From an uncultured Lachnospiraceae bacterium (lineage in GTDB: Bacteria > Bacillota > Clostridia > Lachnospirales > Lachnospiraceae), in assembly GCA_902803245.1 (NCBI GenBank), contig CADCPJ010000029.1, positions 1 through 8,651 on the forward strand: 8,651 nt of DNA. Reading direction: 5' to 3'. Position 1 is the stretch's first letter. Every line of letters begins with the position of its first letter. A model generated the notes under the pieces. It was not told the DNA's origin. It did not search any database and worked only from the letters and a program-made list of their open reading frames with translations. The position numbers were made by a program, and so were the translations under genes. Below, piece after piece: positions 3,072-8,497 of the stretch.

Positions 3072-4670
3072 ATGCGAAAAGTACTGATTGCGGACGACGA
3101 GCAGCTGATCTGCCGGATGATCACGAAGATGATTGACTGGGAAGGAAAGGGCCTTAAGCTGGCGGGAACCGCGGACAACGGCCTCACCCTTCTTCAGATG
3201 ATCGAAGACGTGCACCCGGACATCGTGATTACGGATATCCGGATGCCCGGCCTCGACGGCCTGTCTCTGATCGAGAGGGCTCTCGCAGTACACTCCCAGC
3301 TTGACTTCATCATTATCAGCGGCTATAAAAACTTTGAATACGCCCATCAGGCCCTGACGCTGGGCGTGCGCCACTATCTCTTAAAGCCGATCGATGAGGC
3401 CGAGCTGAGCGAGACCCTCGACCGCATCATCAGGGAAAAGGAAAAGGACGATGAGTCGAGATCGAGGAGCGAGGCGCTTGAGGAAGAGCGCTTCTCCCAC
3501 AGGCAGAATGTGAGGCAGCATTTTTTAAACAATATCCTGCGCTCCGCAAATATCGGAGTGGGGGAGGAGACGGAAGACGAGGACAGCTCCCTTGCATTTC
3601 GGAACAGCAGGTATCTGGCGTTCCTCGTGAAAGTGGACTGGACGGAGGAGGGGGAGATTGCTCCCGGCATCCTTGAGATCCTTAGCGCCATCATCGAGAG
3701 AGAGGAGCGGGAGTGGGGATGCGAGTATGTGAACTCCCACGTAAAGAGCGGGGTCGTGTCCGTCATCAATTATCCAAAGGGGGCCAGGGAGTCGCATCCC
3801 GACGACATGGAGGGCCTCTTTACGAAGTGCCGCAAGGAAATTGACAAGTTCTCCGGCTATTCCGTCACGATCGGAGTCGGATCCGAGAAGGGGGGCATCG
3901 GAGAGACCAGACAGGCGATCGACGAGGCCGTCGCCGCAGTGAAATGCCGGATCCGGAAGGGACTCGGGAGAATCATTTTCTTCGACAGGCTCTCCTATCA
4001 GAAGGTGAATGTCGAAGAGATGGTGAACCCCTCCCGGAAAGGGATAGCCAGGGCAGTGGAATCCCTTGACGCGGAGGCGGTGAAGAACGATTTTCAGCTG
4101 ATGAGCGAGGAGATCCGGGCGAATCCGAGAAACTCACCGGCAGCGGTCTTCGAACTCACGGAGATCTTCCGTGACCTCATCGTGGAAGTTTTCCGGGACA
4201 ATGCGGTAGATGAGAAGACAGCAAAGGCATTTGCGGATGAAACGGATCTCCTGATGGACAGGGCGACGAGCGAGCCCCAGCTCGTCCAGTACTTTGAGGA
4301 CGCGGTGGAGCGGTTCTTCCGGCAGATCCTCTCGGAGAGGCGCCGGAGCGGGCAGGCCCCGGTCCGCCAGGCCAAGGCCTATCTGTCGGAGCATTTCCGG
4401 GAAAATCCCACGCTCGAGCAGGTGTCCGACGTGGTGGGAATGAGTCCCGCCTATTTCAGCACGCTGTTTAAAAAAGAGCTGGGCATCGGGTTCAGCGAAT
4501 ATCTGATCCAGCTGCGCTGCGAGGAGGCGAAGCGGCTCATGCGGGAGACGGGTGAGAGCATGAACCGGATCGCCGAGGACGTCGGGTACCTGGACGCAAA
4601 GTATTTCAGCCGGATTTTCCGCAAGACCGTCGGGATCAAGCCGAGCGAATACAGGAAGCTCTACCGGTGA
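3072..4670 (+). CDS. YesN-type response regulator with AraC DNA-binding domain
   Basis: A 532-residue two-component regulator. Residues 1-120 form a receiver domain with acidic pocket D8-D9, phosphoacceptor D55 in TDIRMPG, S83 and K105 in LLKP, so all key residues are present. The middle (about 120-430) is a poorly conserved region typical of long YesN proteins and contains charged helical stretches. The last 100 residues are a double helix-turn-helix AraC/XylS domain ending in the familiar GIKPSEYRKLYR. Phosphorylation by the adjacent kinase should switch DNA binding; in this family targets are usually nearby sugar transport or binding-protein genes. I chose the ATG at 3072 because receivers of this type begin M-R-K-V-L-I-A-D-D-E and a GGTGGTGGA stretch lies just upstream. 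An in-frame ATG at 3045 would add nine residues and cannot be excluded. It is the first gene of a probable three-gene operon with the kinase and the ABC protein. Confidence 0.93.
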   Translation: MRKVLIADDEQLICRMITKMIDWEGKGLKLAGTADNGLTLLQMIEDVHPDIVITDIRMPGLDGLSLIERALAVHSQLDFIIISGYKNFEYAHQALTLGVRHYLLKPIDEAELSETLDRIIREKEKDDESRSRSEALEEERFSHRQNVRQHFLNNILRSANIGVGEETEDEDSSLAFRNSRYLAFLVKVDWTEEGEIAPGILEILSAIIEREEREWGCEYVNSHVKSGVVSVINYPKGARESHPDDMEGLFTKCRKEIDKFSGYSVTIGVGSEKGGIGETRQAIDEAVAAVKCRIRKGLGRIIFFDRLSYQKVNVEEMVNPSRKGIARAVESLDAEAVKNDFQLMSEEIRANPRNSPAAVFELTEIFRDLIVEVFRDNAVDEKTAKAFADETDLLMDRATSEPQLVQYFEDAVERFFRQILSERRRSGQAPVRQAKAYLSEHFRENPTLEQVSDVVGMSPAYFSTLFKKELGIGFSEYLIQLRCEEAKRLMRETGESMNRIAEDVGYLDAKYFSRIFRKTVGIKPSEYRKLYR

Positions 4671-4742: not shown

Positions 4743-5621
4743 ATGAAGATTGCCGCTGCCATTGTAATACTGATACTCATTGCCCTGGTGATATATCTGC
4801 TGCTCTACGTGCAGGAGGTGCAGGGAATTCTGCGGCTGATCTCAGGAAGAGCTGTAAAGAAGACAGAGATCGTGCCGAGGAAGAAGCTCGGCATCCTGAA
4901 AGCGGAGCTTATGGAGAAGCAGAAGGCCGTGAGAAATTTAAGCGACGCGGAGAGGGACCGGGAGCTCATGGAGACCCGGATGAAGTTTGCGCAGCTCCAG
5001 AATCAGATCAATCCGCACTTTCTGTACAATACCCTGGAGAACATCCGGGCCAGGGCGATCCTCGACGACAACGACGTGATCGCGGACATGACCGAGGCCC
5101 TGTCCCGCTTCTTCCGCTACAACATCAGCAAGCGGGCGGATATCGTGAAGCTCTCCGAGGAGCTGGACAACATCCGGACCTACATGCACATCCAGCAGTA
5201 CCGCTTCACCAACAAATTCGATTTCCAGGTCTATGTCCACGACGACGAGCCCGGGGTGATGGAAGCCAGGATTCCGAAGATGACGCTCCAGCCCATCGTG
5301 GAAAATGCGATCTTCCACGGCATGGAGAACAAGATCGGGAAGGGGCACATCGAAATACACATCGAGTCCGACGAGAACAGCGTCTTCGTGATCGTGGAGG
5401 ACGACGGGGTCGGGATGTCTCCGGAGAGCTTAAGAGAACTCGAGGACAAGCTTGTAAGGGAGCCGGACGGAACATGGGAGACGGGGCACGGCAGCGACGG
5501 CATCGCCATGCGGAACGTCAACAACCGCCTGAAGCTCTTCTTCGGGGAGGAGTGCGGCATCCACGTGTCGAGCACCGAGGGGGTCGGAACGGAAGTGGAG
5601 CTGATTCTGCCGAAGAGATAG
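4743..5621 (+). CDS. Short LytS/YesM-type sensor histidine kinase without external sensor domain
   Basis: A 292-residue membrane-anchored kinase of the HisKA_7TM-independent LytS/YesM (His_kinase plus HATPase_c) type. One hydrophobic helix spans about residues 3-23. A charged, probably coiled-coil linker (about 45-85) leads to the phosphoacceptor motif QINPHFLYNTLEN with H92. The N box is QPIVENAIFHG (N188), the G1 box EDDGVGM (219-225) and the G2 region GHGSDGIAMRNVNNRL (248-263), so catalysis should be intact. YesM and LytS kinases usually carry a large extracellular or multi-helix sensor part; here almost nothing lies outside the membrane, so the input probably comes from a partner protein. 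The start is fixed by an in-frame TAG at 4737-4739; the ribosome site is weak (GAGAG at 4728-4732 or AGG at 4738-4740). The gene lies 72 bases after the regulator, its likely cognate partner, and 71 bases before the degenerate ABC gene. Confidence 0.9.
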   Translation: MKIAAAIVILILIALVIYLLLYVQEVQGILRLISGRAVKKTEIVPRKKLGILKAELMEKQKAVRNLSDAERDRELMETRMKFAQLQNQINPHFLYNTLENIRARAILDDNDVIADMTEALSRFFRYNISKRADIVKLSEELDNIRTYMHIQQYRFTNKFDFQVYVHDDEPGVMEARIPKMTLQPIVENAIFHGMENKIGKGHIEIHIESDENSVFVIVEDDGVGMSPESLRELEDKLVREPDGTWETGHGSDGIAMRNVNNRLKLFFGEECGIHVSSTEGVGTEVELILPKR

Positions 5622-5692: not shown

Positions 5693-7177
5693 ATGAAGAG
5701 AGAATTTCTCCGCATTCACAATCTGGTGACAGGTGAGGAGGAGGGTGGGCTCAGCCGGTTCCACCTGCGCCTGTCGTGTGGGGATTTTGTGGAGATGCTC
5801 GGGACGGAAGGGGCGGGCAAAAGCGCCGCCGCGTCCTTTTTTTCCGGAAAGGAGAAGATCCGGGAGGGCTATGTCCGGATCGCGGGAGTGAGATACTATC
5901 CCGGGGAGACCCTTTCCGGAGCGGATATCCAGTGCATCGGACCGGTTCCCTCCCTCGCAGAAAGCCTCACCGTTGCGGAGAATGTCGCCCTCCTCACGCC
6001 CAAGCGGCGGATCCGGGGCCTCATCCGTCACAAAGATATGGAAGCGAGGGTGAACTTCCTGCTCGCCGAGTTCGGGCTGACGATCCGCGCGGACCGGAAG
6101 GTACAGGAGCTTTCTGAGAGCGAAAAGCGCTGCGTGGAACTGGTGAGGGCGGCGGAAAATGAGGTTCCCTTCATTTTTTTAAGCCACGTATTCGACTCTC
6201 TCGGCCAGGCGGACATCCAGCTCATCGAGGAGTGCCTCCTGGAGCTTAAGAAGAGGGGGACCACGATCCTTATCTTAGGGGGCGGGTTTCCCATCTTCCG
6301 CGGGCTCGACGACCGCATCGTGGTGCTCCGCGGAGGGCAGACCGTCCGCACCATCTACAGCGGGAGCTTTGACCGGGAGGAATATGTCAAGTGGGTGTTC
6401 GGCGTGACGATCCCGGAAAATGTGAGGCAGGAAGCCACCGTCCACCTTCAGAACAGGGAGACGGACCGATACAGGGAGACGGACCGGCACGGAGAGGGCG
6501 GCCGGGACGAAGTGCTGAGGCTTGGGTCCGTCAGATTCGGGGCGTCGGAGGAAATCTCGATGTCGGTTATGCGCGGCGAGATTGTCGGCCTCTATGACAT
6601 GAACAACGTCTGCAACCGGGAGCTGATCCGTCTGCTCACAGGCGGTATGGAGCCCGATTCCGGATGGATGTCCCTCATGGGACGGCCGTATGCTCCGGCC
6701 TCCTTAAGGGAAGCGATCCGCAGAGGGGTCTCATTTATTCCCGGCACGGTTCTTCAAAATGCAGTGATCGAGGGCATGAGCTGCGGCGAGAATCTCGCGC
6801 TCTCCACTTTGCGGCAGCACAGCCTGCTCGGAATCTTTCCCAAAAAGAGAGTCCTGAAGTTCCTTGAGAGGGAGTTCCTTCCGGAGACGGGGGACGGGAC
6901 GGGAGCAGACGGGGCAGGTGGGCTCAGCAGATATGATAAGATGCGGATCGTCCTTGGCAGGGCTCTCATCTCCCGGCCGGTTCTCCTTCTCGCCGAGGAC
7001 ATCGCAAGCGACATGAGCGTCGGCATGCTGAAGCTCGAAAATGAGTATTTCTCCAGGCTGACCCGGGAGGGCTGTGCGGTTCTCATTTCCTCTCAGAACT
7101 TCACTGTGCTCCGGCAGATCTGCGACCGCATCCTCGTGATCAACTCCAATCAGGAGGCGTCCGGCCTCCGCCCTTAG
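5693..7177 (+). CDS. Degenerate tandem ABC ATPase of the RbsA/MglA sugar family (probable pseudo-ATPase)
   Basis: The 494-residue length and two-cassette layout match sugar-importer ATPases such as RbsA and MglA (about 500 residues). Cassette 1 keeps Walker A (GTEGAGKS, 37-44), but its signature is LSESEK (140-145) instead of LSGGQ-like, Walker B DEP is replaced by S164-H165-V166 and the H-loop SH is replaced by glycines near 196-198. Cassette 2 has lost the Walker A glycines and basic residue (D302, N305, C307, N308 in the region 295-311), has LSRYDKM (411-417) for LSGGNQQK, and A434-E435-D436 for DEP; it keeps the ISSQ segment (465-468) and DRILVI end typical of this family. Nucleotide binding at site 1 is possible, but normal hydrolysis is unlikely. 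The frame is intact, so this is not a decaying pseudogene in the ordinary sense. The ATG at 5693 fits the family start and follows AGAGGG. Position between kinase and binding protein suggests a regulatory or coupling role (inference). Confidence 0.85.
   Translation: MKREFLRIHNLVTGEEEGGLSRFHLRLSCGDFVEMLGTEGAGKSAAASFFSGKEKIREGYVRIAGVRYYPGETLSGADIQCIGPVPSLAESLTVAENVALLTPKRRIRGLIRHKDMEARVNFLLAEFGLTIRADRKVQELSESEKRCVELVRAAENEVPFIFLSHVFDSLGQADIQLIEECLLELKKRGTTILILGGGFPIFRGLDDRIVVLRGGQTVRTIYSGSFDREEYVKWVFGVTIPENVRQEATVHLQNRETDRYRETDRHGEGGRDEVLRLGSVRFGASEEISMSVMRGEIVGLYDMNNVCNRELIRLLTGGMEPDSGWMSLMGRPYAPASLREAIRRGVSFIPGTVLQNAVIEGMSCGENLALSTLRQHSLLGIFPKKRVLKFLEREFLPETGDGTGADGAGGLSRYDKMRIVLGRALISRPVLLLAEDIASDMSVGMLKLENEYFSRLTREGCAVLISSQNFTVLRQICDRILVINSNQEASGLRP
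6453..6486 (+). repeat. In-frame 18-bp direct repeat in the inter-cassette linker
   Basis: The 16-base sequence ACAGGGAGACGGACCG occurs at 6453-6468 and again at 6471-6486 (period 18), giving the peptide repeat RETDRY-RETDRH. It lies in the linker between the two ABC cassettes, so the duplication extends a flexible charged segment without breaking the frame. Confidence 0.8.
7153..7169 (+). other. Hairpin at the 3' end of the pseudo-ATPase gene
   Basis: GGAGGC (7153-7158) pairs with GCCTCC (7164-7169) across a 5-base loop, just before the stop codon. It has no T-run. It could slow or stabilise the message end, but evidence for a role is weak. Confidence 0.25.
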
Positions 7178-7320
7178 TGCGCACGGATGCAGACACCAAA
7201 AAAGACATGAAAGGGCTGCGCTCATGCCCTTTCGGGCGCACAGGCTCAGACAGGGAAAGATATGAGGCGGCTGCATTTATGTCCCTTTCGGGCGCACGGA
7301 TGCGGACAGGAAAAGAAGAT
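7171..7320 (+). repeat. Imperfect 56-57-bp tandem repeat, about 2.6 copies
   Basis: Units begin near 7171, 7227 and 7283. CCCTTTCGGGCGCAC is identical at 7227-7241 and 7283-7297, and a variant (CCCTTAGTGCGCAC) is at 7171-7184 overlapping the pseudo-ATPase stop codon. GCGCACGGATGC-GACA is shared at 7179-7195 and 7292-7308 with one difference. The third unit fades out near 7320. The array fills most of the gap before the binding-protein gene and ends about 35 bases upstream of its proposed -35 box. Direct repeats upstream of a target promoter would suit an AraC-type regulator, but this is unproven. A GTG-started frame across the array (7177-7359) simply translates the repeat and is not called a gene. 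Confidence 0.8.
7209..7233 (+). other. Perfect 8-bp inverted repeat inside the tandem array
   Basis: GAAAGGGC (7209-7216) and GCCCTTTC (7226-7233) pair across nine bases. No T-run follows, but it could still act as a weak terminator or transcript-end hairpin for the three-gene operon, since no better terminator is seen between the pseudo-ATPase and the binding-protein gene. The second repeat unit does not keep the left arm. Confidence 0.4.
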
Positions 7321-7450: not shown

Positions 7451-8497
7451 ATGAAAAAGCGTTTCATCAGCGGACTTCTCACAGCATCCATGGTTATGGG
7501 CCTTATGACAGGCGCGGCGACTGTCGCTTCTGCGGACGAGGCAGCCGAGTCCAGATCCGGACTTAAGATCGGCATGACCATCCCGGCCGTCAGCTCCGAT
7601 TTCATGGCAGCTCTCGGCGACCTGCTCAAGGGCTACCTTGAGGACCAGGGCCACACGGTTCAGTTCGACTCCGCGGACGGCGATGTGACAAAGCAGGTCA
7701 CTCAGGTTGAAAATGACATCCAGATGGGCTGCGACGCCCTGGTGATCTGGCCGGTGAACGGCGAGGGCATGGCTGCCACAGTTGCCAATGCTACCGCTCA
7801 GGGCATCCCGGTTCTCGCATTTGCGAATGCGATCCCCGGCGCAACGGCTAACCAGGTCGCAGCGGACGACTACGAGATGGGCTACGCTGAGGCAGAGCTC
7901 GCCAATGACTGGATCAATGAGACATTTGCCGATGCAGGCGACAAGGGCGTGAAGGTCTTCGTGATCACCGCTTCCAACACACCGCAGGCCGTTCAGAGAA
8001 GTGAAGGCATGCAGCAGATCGCCGAGATGAACAGCAAGGTCGATATGATTACGGCTGATGTGGACTGGGACAGCCCCAGCGGCTCCTCCGCACTCGTTGA
8101 AAACACCCTGATGACCAATCCGGACGTCAAAGTCATCATGGCACCGGGCGGAACGGTCGGCGTCGCTGCCAACAACTTCGTCATGAGCGCAAATTCACAG
8201 GTCGAGGACAAGGACCATTTCGCAGTCTTCACCGTCGACGAGACAGAAGAGATTGATTCAGCCATCGCCGGTTCTCCGGAAGGCGCTTCCGTCCTTCGCG
8301 GAACGATCTCCATGGGCACATTCGCTGACACGATCGCTGACTTCGCAAAGGCAATCCAGCCGTACCTCGATGGCGGTGAGATGCAGCAGGTCGACGGCCA
8401 GGCCTTCAAGGTCACTCCTGAGAGCCTCGCAGGAAGCGCTGCAGAGAGCACAACTGAGAGCGCAGCAGAGAGCACAACCGAGAGCGCAGCAGAATAA
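7451..8497 (+). CDS. Secreted type-1 sugar-binding protein (RbsB-like), no lipobox
   Basis: A 348-residue extracellular solute-binding protein. It has a classical signal peptide: KKR, a hydrophobic core (about 5-23) and a likely signal-peptidase I cut at ASA|DE (28|29). The mature part starts with the Peripla_BP_4 pattern KIGMTIPAVSSDFM, followed by a KQVTQVENDI helix, the CDALVIWPVNG strand-loop and GIPVLAFAN, all typical of ribose/galactose/xylose-type binding proteins that hand sugar to an RbsA/RbsC-type importer or a sensor. The exact ligand is not predictable. It lacks the lipobox cysteine that anchors most Gram-positive binding proteins; the only cysteine seen is C94 inside the fold. 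The C-terminus is an Ala/Glu/Ser/Thr repeat (329-348). It follows the pseudo-ATPase gene, has its own promoter and terminator, and no permease gene follows within the window. This favours a sensing role or service to a transporter encoded elsewhere (inference). Confidence 0.9.
   Translation: MKKRFISGLLTASMVMGLMTGAATVASADEAAESRSGLKIGMTIPAVSSDFMAALGDLLKGYLEDQGHTVQFDSADGDVTKQVTQVENDIQMGCDALVIWPVNGEGMAATVANATAQGIPVLAFANAIPGATANQVAADDYEMGYAEAELANDWINETFADAGDKGVKVFVITASNTPQAVQRSEGMQQIAEMNSKVDMITADVDWDSPSGSSALVENTLMTNPDVKVIMAPGGTVGVAANNFVMSANSQVEDKDHFAVFTVDETEEIDSAIAGSPEGASVLRGTISMGTFADTIADFAKAIQPYLDGGEMQQVDGQAFKVTPESLAGSAAESTTESAAESTTESAAE
8435..8494 (+). repeat. 24-bp tandem repeat encoding the SAAESTTE tail
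   Basis: Two 24-base units (8435-8458, 8459-8482) differing at two third-codon positions, plus half a unit (8483-8494), encode SAAESTTE-SAAESTTE-SAAE at the very C-terminus of the binding protein. Such repeats can change copy number by slippage without shifting the frame. Confidence 0.9.

Follow-up and report, generated by a model that had tools for sequence, protein, structure and literature searches.

The gene at positions 5693-7177 of the window, the whole 8,651-nucleotide stretch of DNA analysed here, encodes a tandem ABC protein of the RbsA type whose ATP-hydrolysing motifs have been dismantled. It belongs to a family of such proteins in many Lachnospiraceae-type bacteria, referred to here as dead RbsA or pseudo-RbsA, whose genes almost always lie directly behind that of a histidine kinase lacking a sensor domain. 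Judging from sequence and gene order, dead RbsA is probably a non-hydrolytic relay that passes a signal from a sugar importer to the sensorless kinase encoded just before it, and in this way replaces the missing sensor.

The window protein and its neighbours

The window is the whole of contig C29 in an 86% complete genome of 417 contigs. The features that bear on the argument are the following.

3075..4670, + strand: AraC-type response regulator, receiver domain and HTH (Pfam Response_reg, 81.6 bits; HTH_18, 82.6 bits)
4743..5621, + strand: YesM/LytS-type histidine kinase, 292 aa (Pfam His_kinase, 91.4 bits; HATPase_c, 45.8 bits)
5693..7177, + strand: pseudo-RbsA, degenerate tandem ABC protein, 494 aa
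5801..5824, + strand: cassette 1 Walker A of pseudo-RbsA, GTEGAGKS, retained (residues 37-44)
5951..5995, + strand: cassette 1 segment past the Q-loop position, SLAESLTVAENVALL, conserved in the dead family
6110..6127, + strand: cassette 1 signature position, LSESEK (residues 140-145)
6182..6190, + strand: cassette 1 Walker B position, SHV for DEP (S164-H165-V166)
6596..6619, + strand: cassette 2 Walker A position, DMNNVCNR
6764..6814, + strand: cassette 2 counterpart of the docking-side segment, VIEGMSCGENLALSTLR, with an Asn found in 61/62 sequences
6923..6946, + strand: cassette 2 signature position, LSRYDKMR for LSGGNQQK (LSRYDKM being residues 411-417)
6995..7003, + strand: cassette 2 Walker B position, EDI for DEP (E435-D436-I437)
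7451..8497, + strand: sugar-type substrate-binding protein, SBP (Pfam Peripla_BP_4, 91.3 bits)

The pseudo-RbsA frame is open throughout and codes for 494 amino acids followed by a stop codon, as the initial annotation had stated. It can be extended upstream mechanically to 567 amino acids (from position 5474), and 21 aligned homologues share the Met of the 494-residue start. Two stretches of the protein match Pfam ABC_tran, and two ABC cassettes in one chain of about 500 residues are a feature of the RbsA type of CUT2 ATPase. The NCBIfam models match over nearly the whole length, the best scores being 129 bits for AraG (cut-off 689) and 106 bits for RbsA (cut-off 745), but for none of the 25 families shown does the protein reach the curated cut-off. 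An AlphaFold model based on 18 sequences has a mean pLDDT of 80.8 and a pTM of 0.62; tandem ABC chains of Dpp/Opp importers are its best structural match. Fold and length are kept, judging by the Pfam hits and the model; the relatives have 478-516 amino acids.

Of the elements that make up a complete ATP site (Walker A1, Walker B1 DE, the H-loop His and the LSGG of cassette 2), the window protein has Walker A1 only. For cassette 1, sequence and alignment agree with all that had been read in it: GTEGAGKS is kept, SHV and LSESEK stand at the Walker B and signature positions, and glycines replace the H-loop Ser-His. For cassette 2, LSRYDKM was confirmed, as were D302, N305 and C307, which occupy the Gly positions of a canonical cassette 2, but the reported 'AED for DEP' was shifted by one residue, the alignment giving E435-D436-I437. 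The D of DMNNVCNR is common in the dead family (41/62), and so is the N (35/62). In the window protein itself, site 1 may have kept the ability to bind ATP.

Among relatives, the genes run in the order AraC-type response regulator, YesM-type kinase, dead RbsA, SBP, normal RbsA and RbsC. The window holds the first four, and its contig ends 154 bases past the SBP gene. The normal RbsA and the RbsC of the same genome are most likely those of contig C230, a link made by content alone and not by assembly; there, an RbsA gene whose product is 89% identical to that of L020 starts about 90 bases in from the contig end, and RbsC follows. The response regulator, its start codon picked from the position of the receiver domain, has an orthologue preceding the kinase in relative loci, and a relative of the SBP follows pseudo-RbsA in L019, L020, L022-L026 and L068. 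The kinase combines His_kinase (PF06580) with HATPase_c, as YesM/LytS-type kinases do, and has the His box NPHFLYN; by eye, its N terminus has a single membrane helix, with no sensor domain outside the membrane. In another family of the same order, the G613 locus (L067) reads RbsA, RbsC, SBP, response regulator, kinase and dead RbsA.

Some minor features of the window may be recorded here. CCCTTTCGGGCGCAC occurs twice between dead RbsA and the SBP gene, at 7227 and 7283 (window 7227-7297), and the two copies are possible repeats or leader elements. Upstream of the module, the frame at 7-1755 has, by eye, the look of an iron-sulfur NAD(P)H oxidoreductase, and 1759-2946 encodes a short protein with ferredoxin motifs whose similarity to NuoF is confined to the C-terminal part of the latter. 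A frame resembling an iron-sulfur protein is also found upstream of the module in L020.

Motif loss and constraint in the dead RbsA family

The public proteins include 22 clusters at 46-99% identity to the window protein (478-516 aa), with a gap below them, the other matches being CUT2-like ATPases at ≤28% identity; both statements apply to the best 120 of 493 matches. These clusters make up a close clade, and the possibility of a chance frame was rejected. In an alignment of the window protein with 21 clusters, the 99% cluster being left out, GxGK of cassette 1 is present in 20/22 sequences and the full Walker A with its Ser/Thr in 8/22; no sequence (0/22) has the Walker B Glu, LSGG or a P-loop in cassette 2. 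Several of the positions at which motifs have been replaced are invariant (Y301-D302-M303, E435-D436 and D440-M441), as is expected of a new function.

A wider census aligned 62 dead sequences with 43 canonical ones; L132 was left out of the census, the tree and the profile. Among the dead sequences, the full Walker A of cassette 1 is kept in 17/62, the H-loop His in 10/62, the Q-loop Gln in 5/62 and the Walker B DE of cassette 1 in 1/62 (L106). The P-loop glycines, Walker B DE and signature GG of cassette 2 occur in 0/62, and 0/62 have a complete site 1. Given that the canonical set was chosen by LSGG plus DEP, the contrast at these columns exists partly by construction; this does not apply to the finding that no kinase-linked RbsA had the LSGG-plus-DEP set. 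Nucleotide binding cannot be the shared function of the family, because the full Walker A is present in 17/62 sequences for cassette 1 and in 0/62 for cassette 2. Thus, of the two roles suggested at the outset, that of a scaffold (or relay) fits better than that of a nucleotide-state sensor.

Where public members carry a name at all, which few do, it is 'ATP-binding cassette domain-containing protein', 'sugar ABC transporter ATP-binding protein' or something close to these, and because of such names dead RbsA may be miscounted as sugar-transporter ATPases. Such proteins can also escape annotation, as seen from the dead RbsA of L116 and L127, which score 20.0 and 24.5 against a Pfam ABC_tran cut-off of 25.

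Most pairs of loci are saturated for dN/dS, and those usable for dead RbsA were L024/L025 and L141/L142 only, neither being close to the window. Between the sister species L141 and L142, dead RbsA has 31.5 synonymous versus 5.5 amino-acid changes (dS 0.116, dN 0.0047, omega 0.04), and the kinase has an omega of 0.15, from few changes. Between L024 and L025, dead RbsA has a dS of 1.41 and an omega of 0.10, equal to that of the adjoining kinase. These values are not near 1, and of the two signs named beforehand as marks of decay, namely frameshifted copies and an omega near 1 in close relatives, neither was seen. The claim that the gene is under selection for a non-hydrolytic role other than transport is supported, as far as sequence goes, by the two omega values, the loss of motifs and the constant company of the same genes.

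The distribution of constraint was compared between 57 dead and 23 canonical non-redundant sequences, with L115 left out. From canonical to dead, conservation drops at the 26 ATP-motif columns (92nd to 48th percentile) and climbs at the 32 columns past the Q-loop position of the two cassettes (44th to 69th; 20,000 permutations, 1e-4). The Walker B columns of cassette 2 go from the 93rd to the 74th percentile, a drop that is not significant; a 14-column core, picked after the census, goes from the 57th to the 89th. The position of the Q-loop Gln lies at the 4th percentile in the dead family, among its least conserved columns. In MalK, the permease coupling helix is described as docking in a cleft of the helical sub-domain, with the Q-loop and F81-Y87 involved (PMC3150292, PMC7658222). 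The segments measured here start inside the stretch equivalent to F81-Y87, overlap it partly and continue along the helical sub-domain; in the window protein, the segment at 5951..5995 adjoins and partly overlaps the region that holds the coupling helix in MalK (PMC7658222, PMC3150292). The identification of this docking side relies on homology with MalK, which belongs to an importer of another subfamily, and a PDB search with the neighbouring canonical RbsA gave no CUT2 importer among the best 60 of 574 matches. The shift in constraint can be read as a loss of catalysis with the contact to the permease retained or tightened, a reading to be taken with caution in view of the variable Q-loop Gln position.

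In a quick maximum-likelihood tree (85 rows, LG+G4), all 58 dead rows fall on one side of a branch with an SH-aLRT of 100, although these rows have long branches, so that long-branch attraction could account for part of the clade, and some pairings are unsafe. The first branch of the dead family in this tree is L115. At this locus (L115:7882-11139, in G174), a kinase with a 217-residue extracytoplasmic loop is followed by a tandem ABC protein with intact GNNGAGKS and Q-loop Gln; the H-loop His and the cassette 2 Walker B are lost, and cassette 2 is half-degenerate. L115 is an apparent intermediate, or transitional locus.

Linkage to kinases without a sensor domain

Searches with the ABC protein itself gave little. 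At the threshold used, dead RbsA was detected in 4/42 genus genomes and 6/397 family genomes, the window's genome being counted in both, and a single-protein scan of the species collection returned one distant ABC relative only, in a Chloroflexota genome. Of the 25 matches that the alignment retrieved from 392 order genomes, at four scored candidates per genome, 23 have LSGGNQ and count as ordinary RbsA, which leaves the window and G613 (L028) as the degenerate ones. When 22 genomes of G613's family were searched with the dead RbsA of G613, one ordinary RbsA at 26% was found besides G613. Dead and normal ABC proteins score alike, so the ABC sequence is a poor bait and the kinase was used in its place; kinase searching later gave dead RbsA in two more genomes of the G613 family (L152, L158).

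An alignment search with the kinase in 299 family genomes found 74 matches in 44 genomes, with up to six per genome; the first screening step was loose and few candidates were scored, so the genome counts are lower bounds. Of these matches, 45 were looked at: the window, four close loci, and L101-L140, the latter 40 being fetched with wide context. In 39 of these 40 loci, picked by kinase similarity alone, dead RbsA (here, a tandem ABC protein that does not have LSGG plus DEP) is encoded immediately 3′ of the kinase in the same orientation, and in the 40th (L132) it stands at the head of the same cluster. The same arrangement is seen in ten further loci (L019-L026, L067, L068); since these were found through dead RbsA, the adjacency is tested by the 40 kinase-picked loci only. 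The overlap between kinase and dead RbsA genes is exactly 4 nt in 16 of the 50 loci; large overlaps depend on the longest-frame start.

The fetched DNA of the 50 loci contains an SBP in 47, an RbsC in 44 and a canonical RbsA in 43 (on the opposite strand in 4), counts that are limited by contig ends in L019, L021, L101 and L104; the RbsA of L025 lies about 15 kb away (L059). The permeases are of the RbsC type by profile, and Pfam BPD_transp_2 was found in the four tested. For L132 and L140, the fetched DNA (12.4 and 19 kb) includes an SBP and an RbsC besides dead RbsA but lacks a canonical RbsA. An extra, diverged RbsC (BPD_transp_2) was observed directly after dead RbsA at L116:11367-12293 and L127:6814-7722, besides the usual RbsA-RbsC pair. 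In L135 (G193), the response regulator before the kinase reads as two frames (259 and 308 aa), possibly by a frameshift or an assembly error.

A hydrophobicity scan of the 50 kinases predicts, before the phospho-acceptor histidine, two helices in 40, one in 7 and none in 3, counts that are sensitive to the choice of start codon. The loop between the two helices is ≤24 residues in 39 of the 40 two-helix kinases and 217 residues in that of L115. Nearly all of these kinases thus lack an extracytoplasmic domain with which to read a sugar or bind an SBP.

In a fresh test, a broader kinase alignment was searched against 378 phylum and 295 order genomes, and the 38 loci returned were examined with 1.5 kb on each side; the window (L145) and the repeats L151 (= L103) and L153 (= L067) were set aside. 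Dead RbsA without LSGG or DEP follows 12/12 of the new short kinases (323-409 aa) and, within 1.5 kb, 0/23 of the sensor-bearing kinases (511-686 aa), a few of which have an SBP and the beginning of a normal RbsA behind them. Such a split has an exact probability of 1 in C(35,12), about 1e-9, and the Fisher test gives 1.6e-10 for 14 versus 23 when L151 and L153 are counted in; it should be noted that the split of 12, 0 and 23 rests on a profile built from short kinases, and that L141 and L142 are near-identical. The new short kinases come from families f1, f5, f22 and f24 of the order and f53, f120 and f125 of the phylum. This kinase type is common, with a match in 44 of 299 sampled family genomes, and it reaches other families of the order and the phylum.

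Across 39 loci, the evolutionary distances of dead RbsA correlate with those of the response regulator at 0.79, the kinase at 0.69, RbsC at 0.71 and the normal RbsA at 0.70; for comparison, kinase and RbsC correlate at 0.52, and response regulator and RbsC at 0.62. These values are suggestive of dead RbsA as a go-between and are confounded by shared ancestry.

Proposed role, rival explanations and known systems

The mechanism that we favour would run as follows. Dead RbsA would sit on an RbsC-type permease, instead of or beside the working RbsA; a sugar-loaded SBP would alter the shape of the permease, and dead RbsA would hand this change to the kinase, which would phosphorylate the AraC-type regulator and thereby switch the transporter operon. 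Without ATP turnover, the complex would report binding rather than transport. Each step of this scheme is our inference: that ATP is not hydrolysed, that dead RbsA docks on RbsC and touches the kinase, that sugar is the signal and that the transporter operon is what is controlled. As most loci also encode a normal RbsA, dead RbsA would have to share RbsC or compete for it. Among multitask importer ATPases such as MsmX, one ATPase can energise several permeases, making contact via the coupling-helix cleft (PMC7658222). Docking of the dead paralogue on RbsC is plausible in the light of this; unlike dead RbsA, MsmX is an energising ATPase.

Two other explanations were considered and rejected. That the gene is merely decaying has a negligible probability: dead RbsA does evolve faster than the adjoining canonical RbsA (50% versus 83% identity for L110/L113), yet its frames are full-length, omega is 0.04 and 0.10 in the two usable pairs, it has conserved positions of its own and its synteny is strict. 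Hardly more credible is an atypical ATPase that still works and drives an alternative transporter. The fold and length would suit it, as would the Walker A 1 of 17/62 members, whereas a complete site 1 is found in 0/62, and the signature GG and Walker B DE of cassette 2 in none.

Two further explanations are judged unlikely. Dead cassettes could bind a nucleotide, a sugar phosphate or another metabolite in the cytosol and control the kinase directly, without any permease. The Walker A 1 of the window protein and the common D and N gained at the cassette 2 P-loop position speak for such a sensor, to which we give only a small chance; the full Walker A 1 is limited to 17/62 members, an SBP and an RbsC accompany the pair in 47/50 and 44/50 loci, and the docking-side segments have gained conservation. 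The same segments would also serve if dead RbsA acted as a brake on the transporter, occupying the RbsC dimer in competition with the working RbsA so that uptake drops, and were tied to the kinase by co-expression only; a normal RbsA to compete with is present in 43/50 loci. Nevertheless, it is the kinase gene and not RbsA to which dead RbsA is coupled in 49/50 loci, it follows short kinases and not sensor-bearing ones, and L132 and L140 have no canonical RbsA in their fetched DNA, all of which leaves the brake, too, with a slightly smaller chance still.

The relay, which we prefer, can be taken one step further, and here our confidence is tentative. An SBP, an RbsC dimer and dead RbsA might together form an importer frozen as a non-transporting receptor, which would drive a kinase without a sensor of its own and represent a new receptor class. 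In this stronger form of the relay, the loci with an extra RbsC (L116/L127), those with no normal RbsA seen (L132/L140) and L115 would be stages of one conversion from pump to receptor.

Among the closest known systems are the CUT2 ATPases (RbsA, AraG, YtfR, XylG, MglA), with which dead RbsA shares the tandem ABC architecture, length, NCBIfam matches and, in the tree, common ancestry. It differs from them in having no LSGG, neither of the Walker B DE pairs and no cassette 2 P-loop, and in being encoded directly after a kinase. A transporter, or a paralogue of one, acts as the receptor for a kinase in PstSCAB-PhoU-PhoR and UhpC-UhpB, respectively. UhpC is a paralogue of an MFS permease and PstB is an active ATPase; neither of the two is a dead ATPase subunit.

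Another comparison is with the Bce modules (BceAB-BceS-BceR), in which, as here, a kinase without a dedicated sensor domain is encoded with an ABC transporter. BceS needs its ABC transporter for activation, and a flux-sensing mechanism is proposed (PMC10314905). There, the working transporter is the proposed sensor, whereas here a separate dead ATPase paralogue goes with the kinase; the modules described here also differ in encoding a sugar importer with an SBP, a YesM-type kinase and an RbsC-type permease, not a BceB-type permease with a large extracellular domain. Clostridial sugar sensing by a kinase and a regulator with an SBP is described for CuaDSR and XylFII-LytS, the SBP binding the extracytoplasmic part of the kinase (PMC10384115), a part that is absent from nearly all kinases here. 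Among the open-licence papers listed, no description of the present module was found; subscription papers lay outside this scope, and an earlier mention is possible.

For the transporter-coupled kinases known so far, sensing is attributed to the working transporter; in the modules described here, a motor subunit has seemingly been duplicated, disarmed and attached to a kinase that has lost its outside sensor. Two questions thereby become open to test: how a kinase that has no sensor domain can read nutrients, and by what route an ATPase turns into a signalling part.

A separate observation concerns three public proteins of 855-865 amino acids (P0042, P0096 and P0133), in which an RbsC-type permease domain (PF02653) and ABC_tran are found in one chain.
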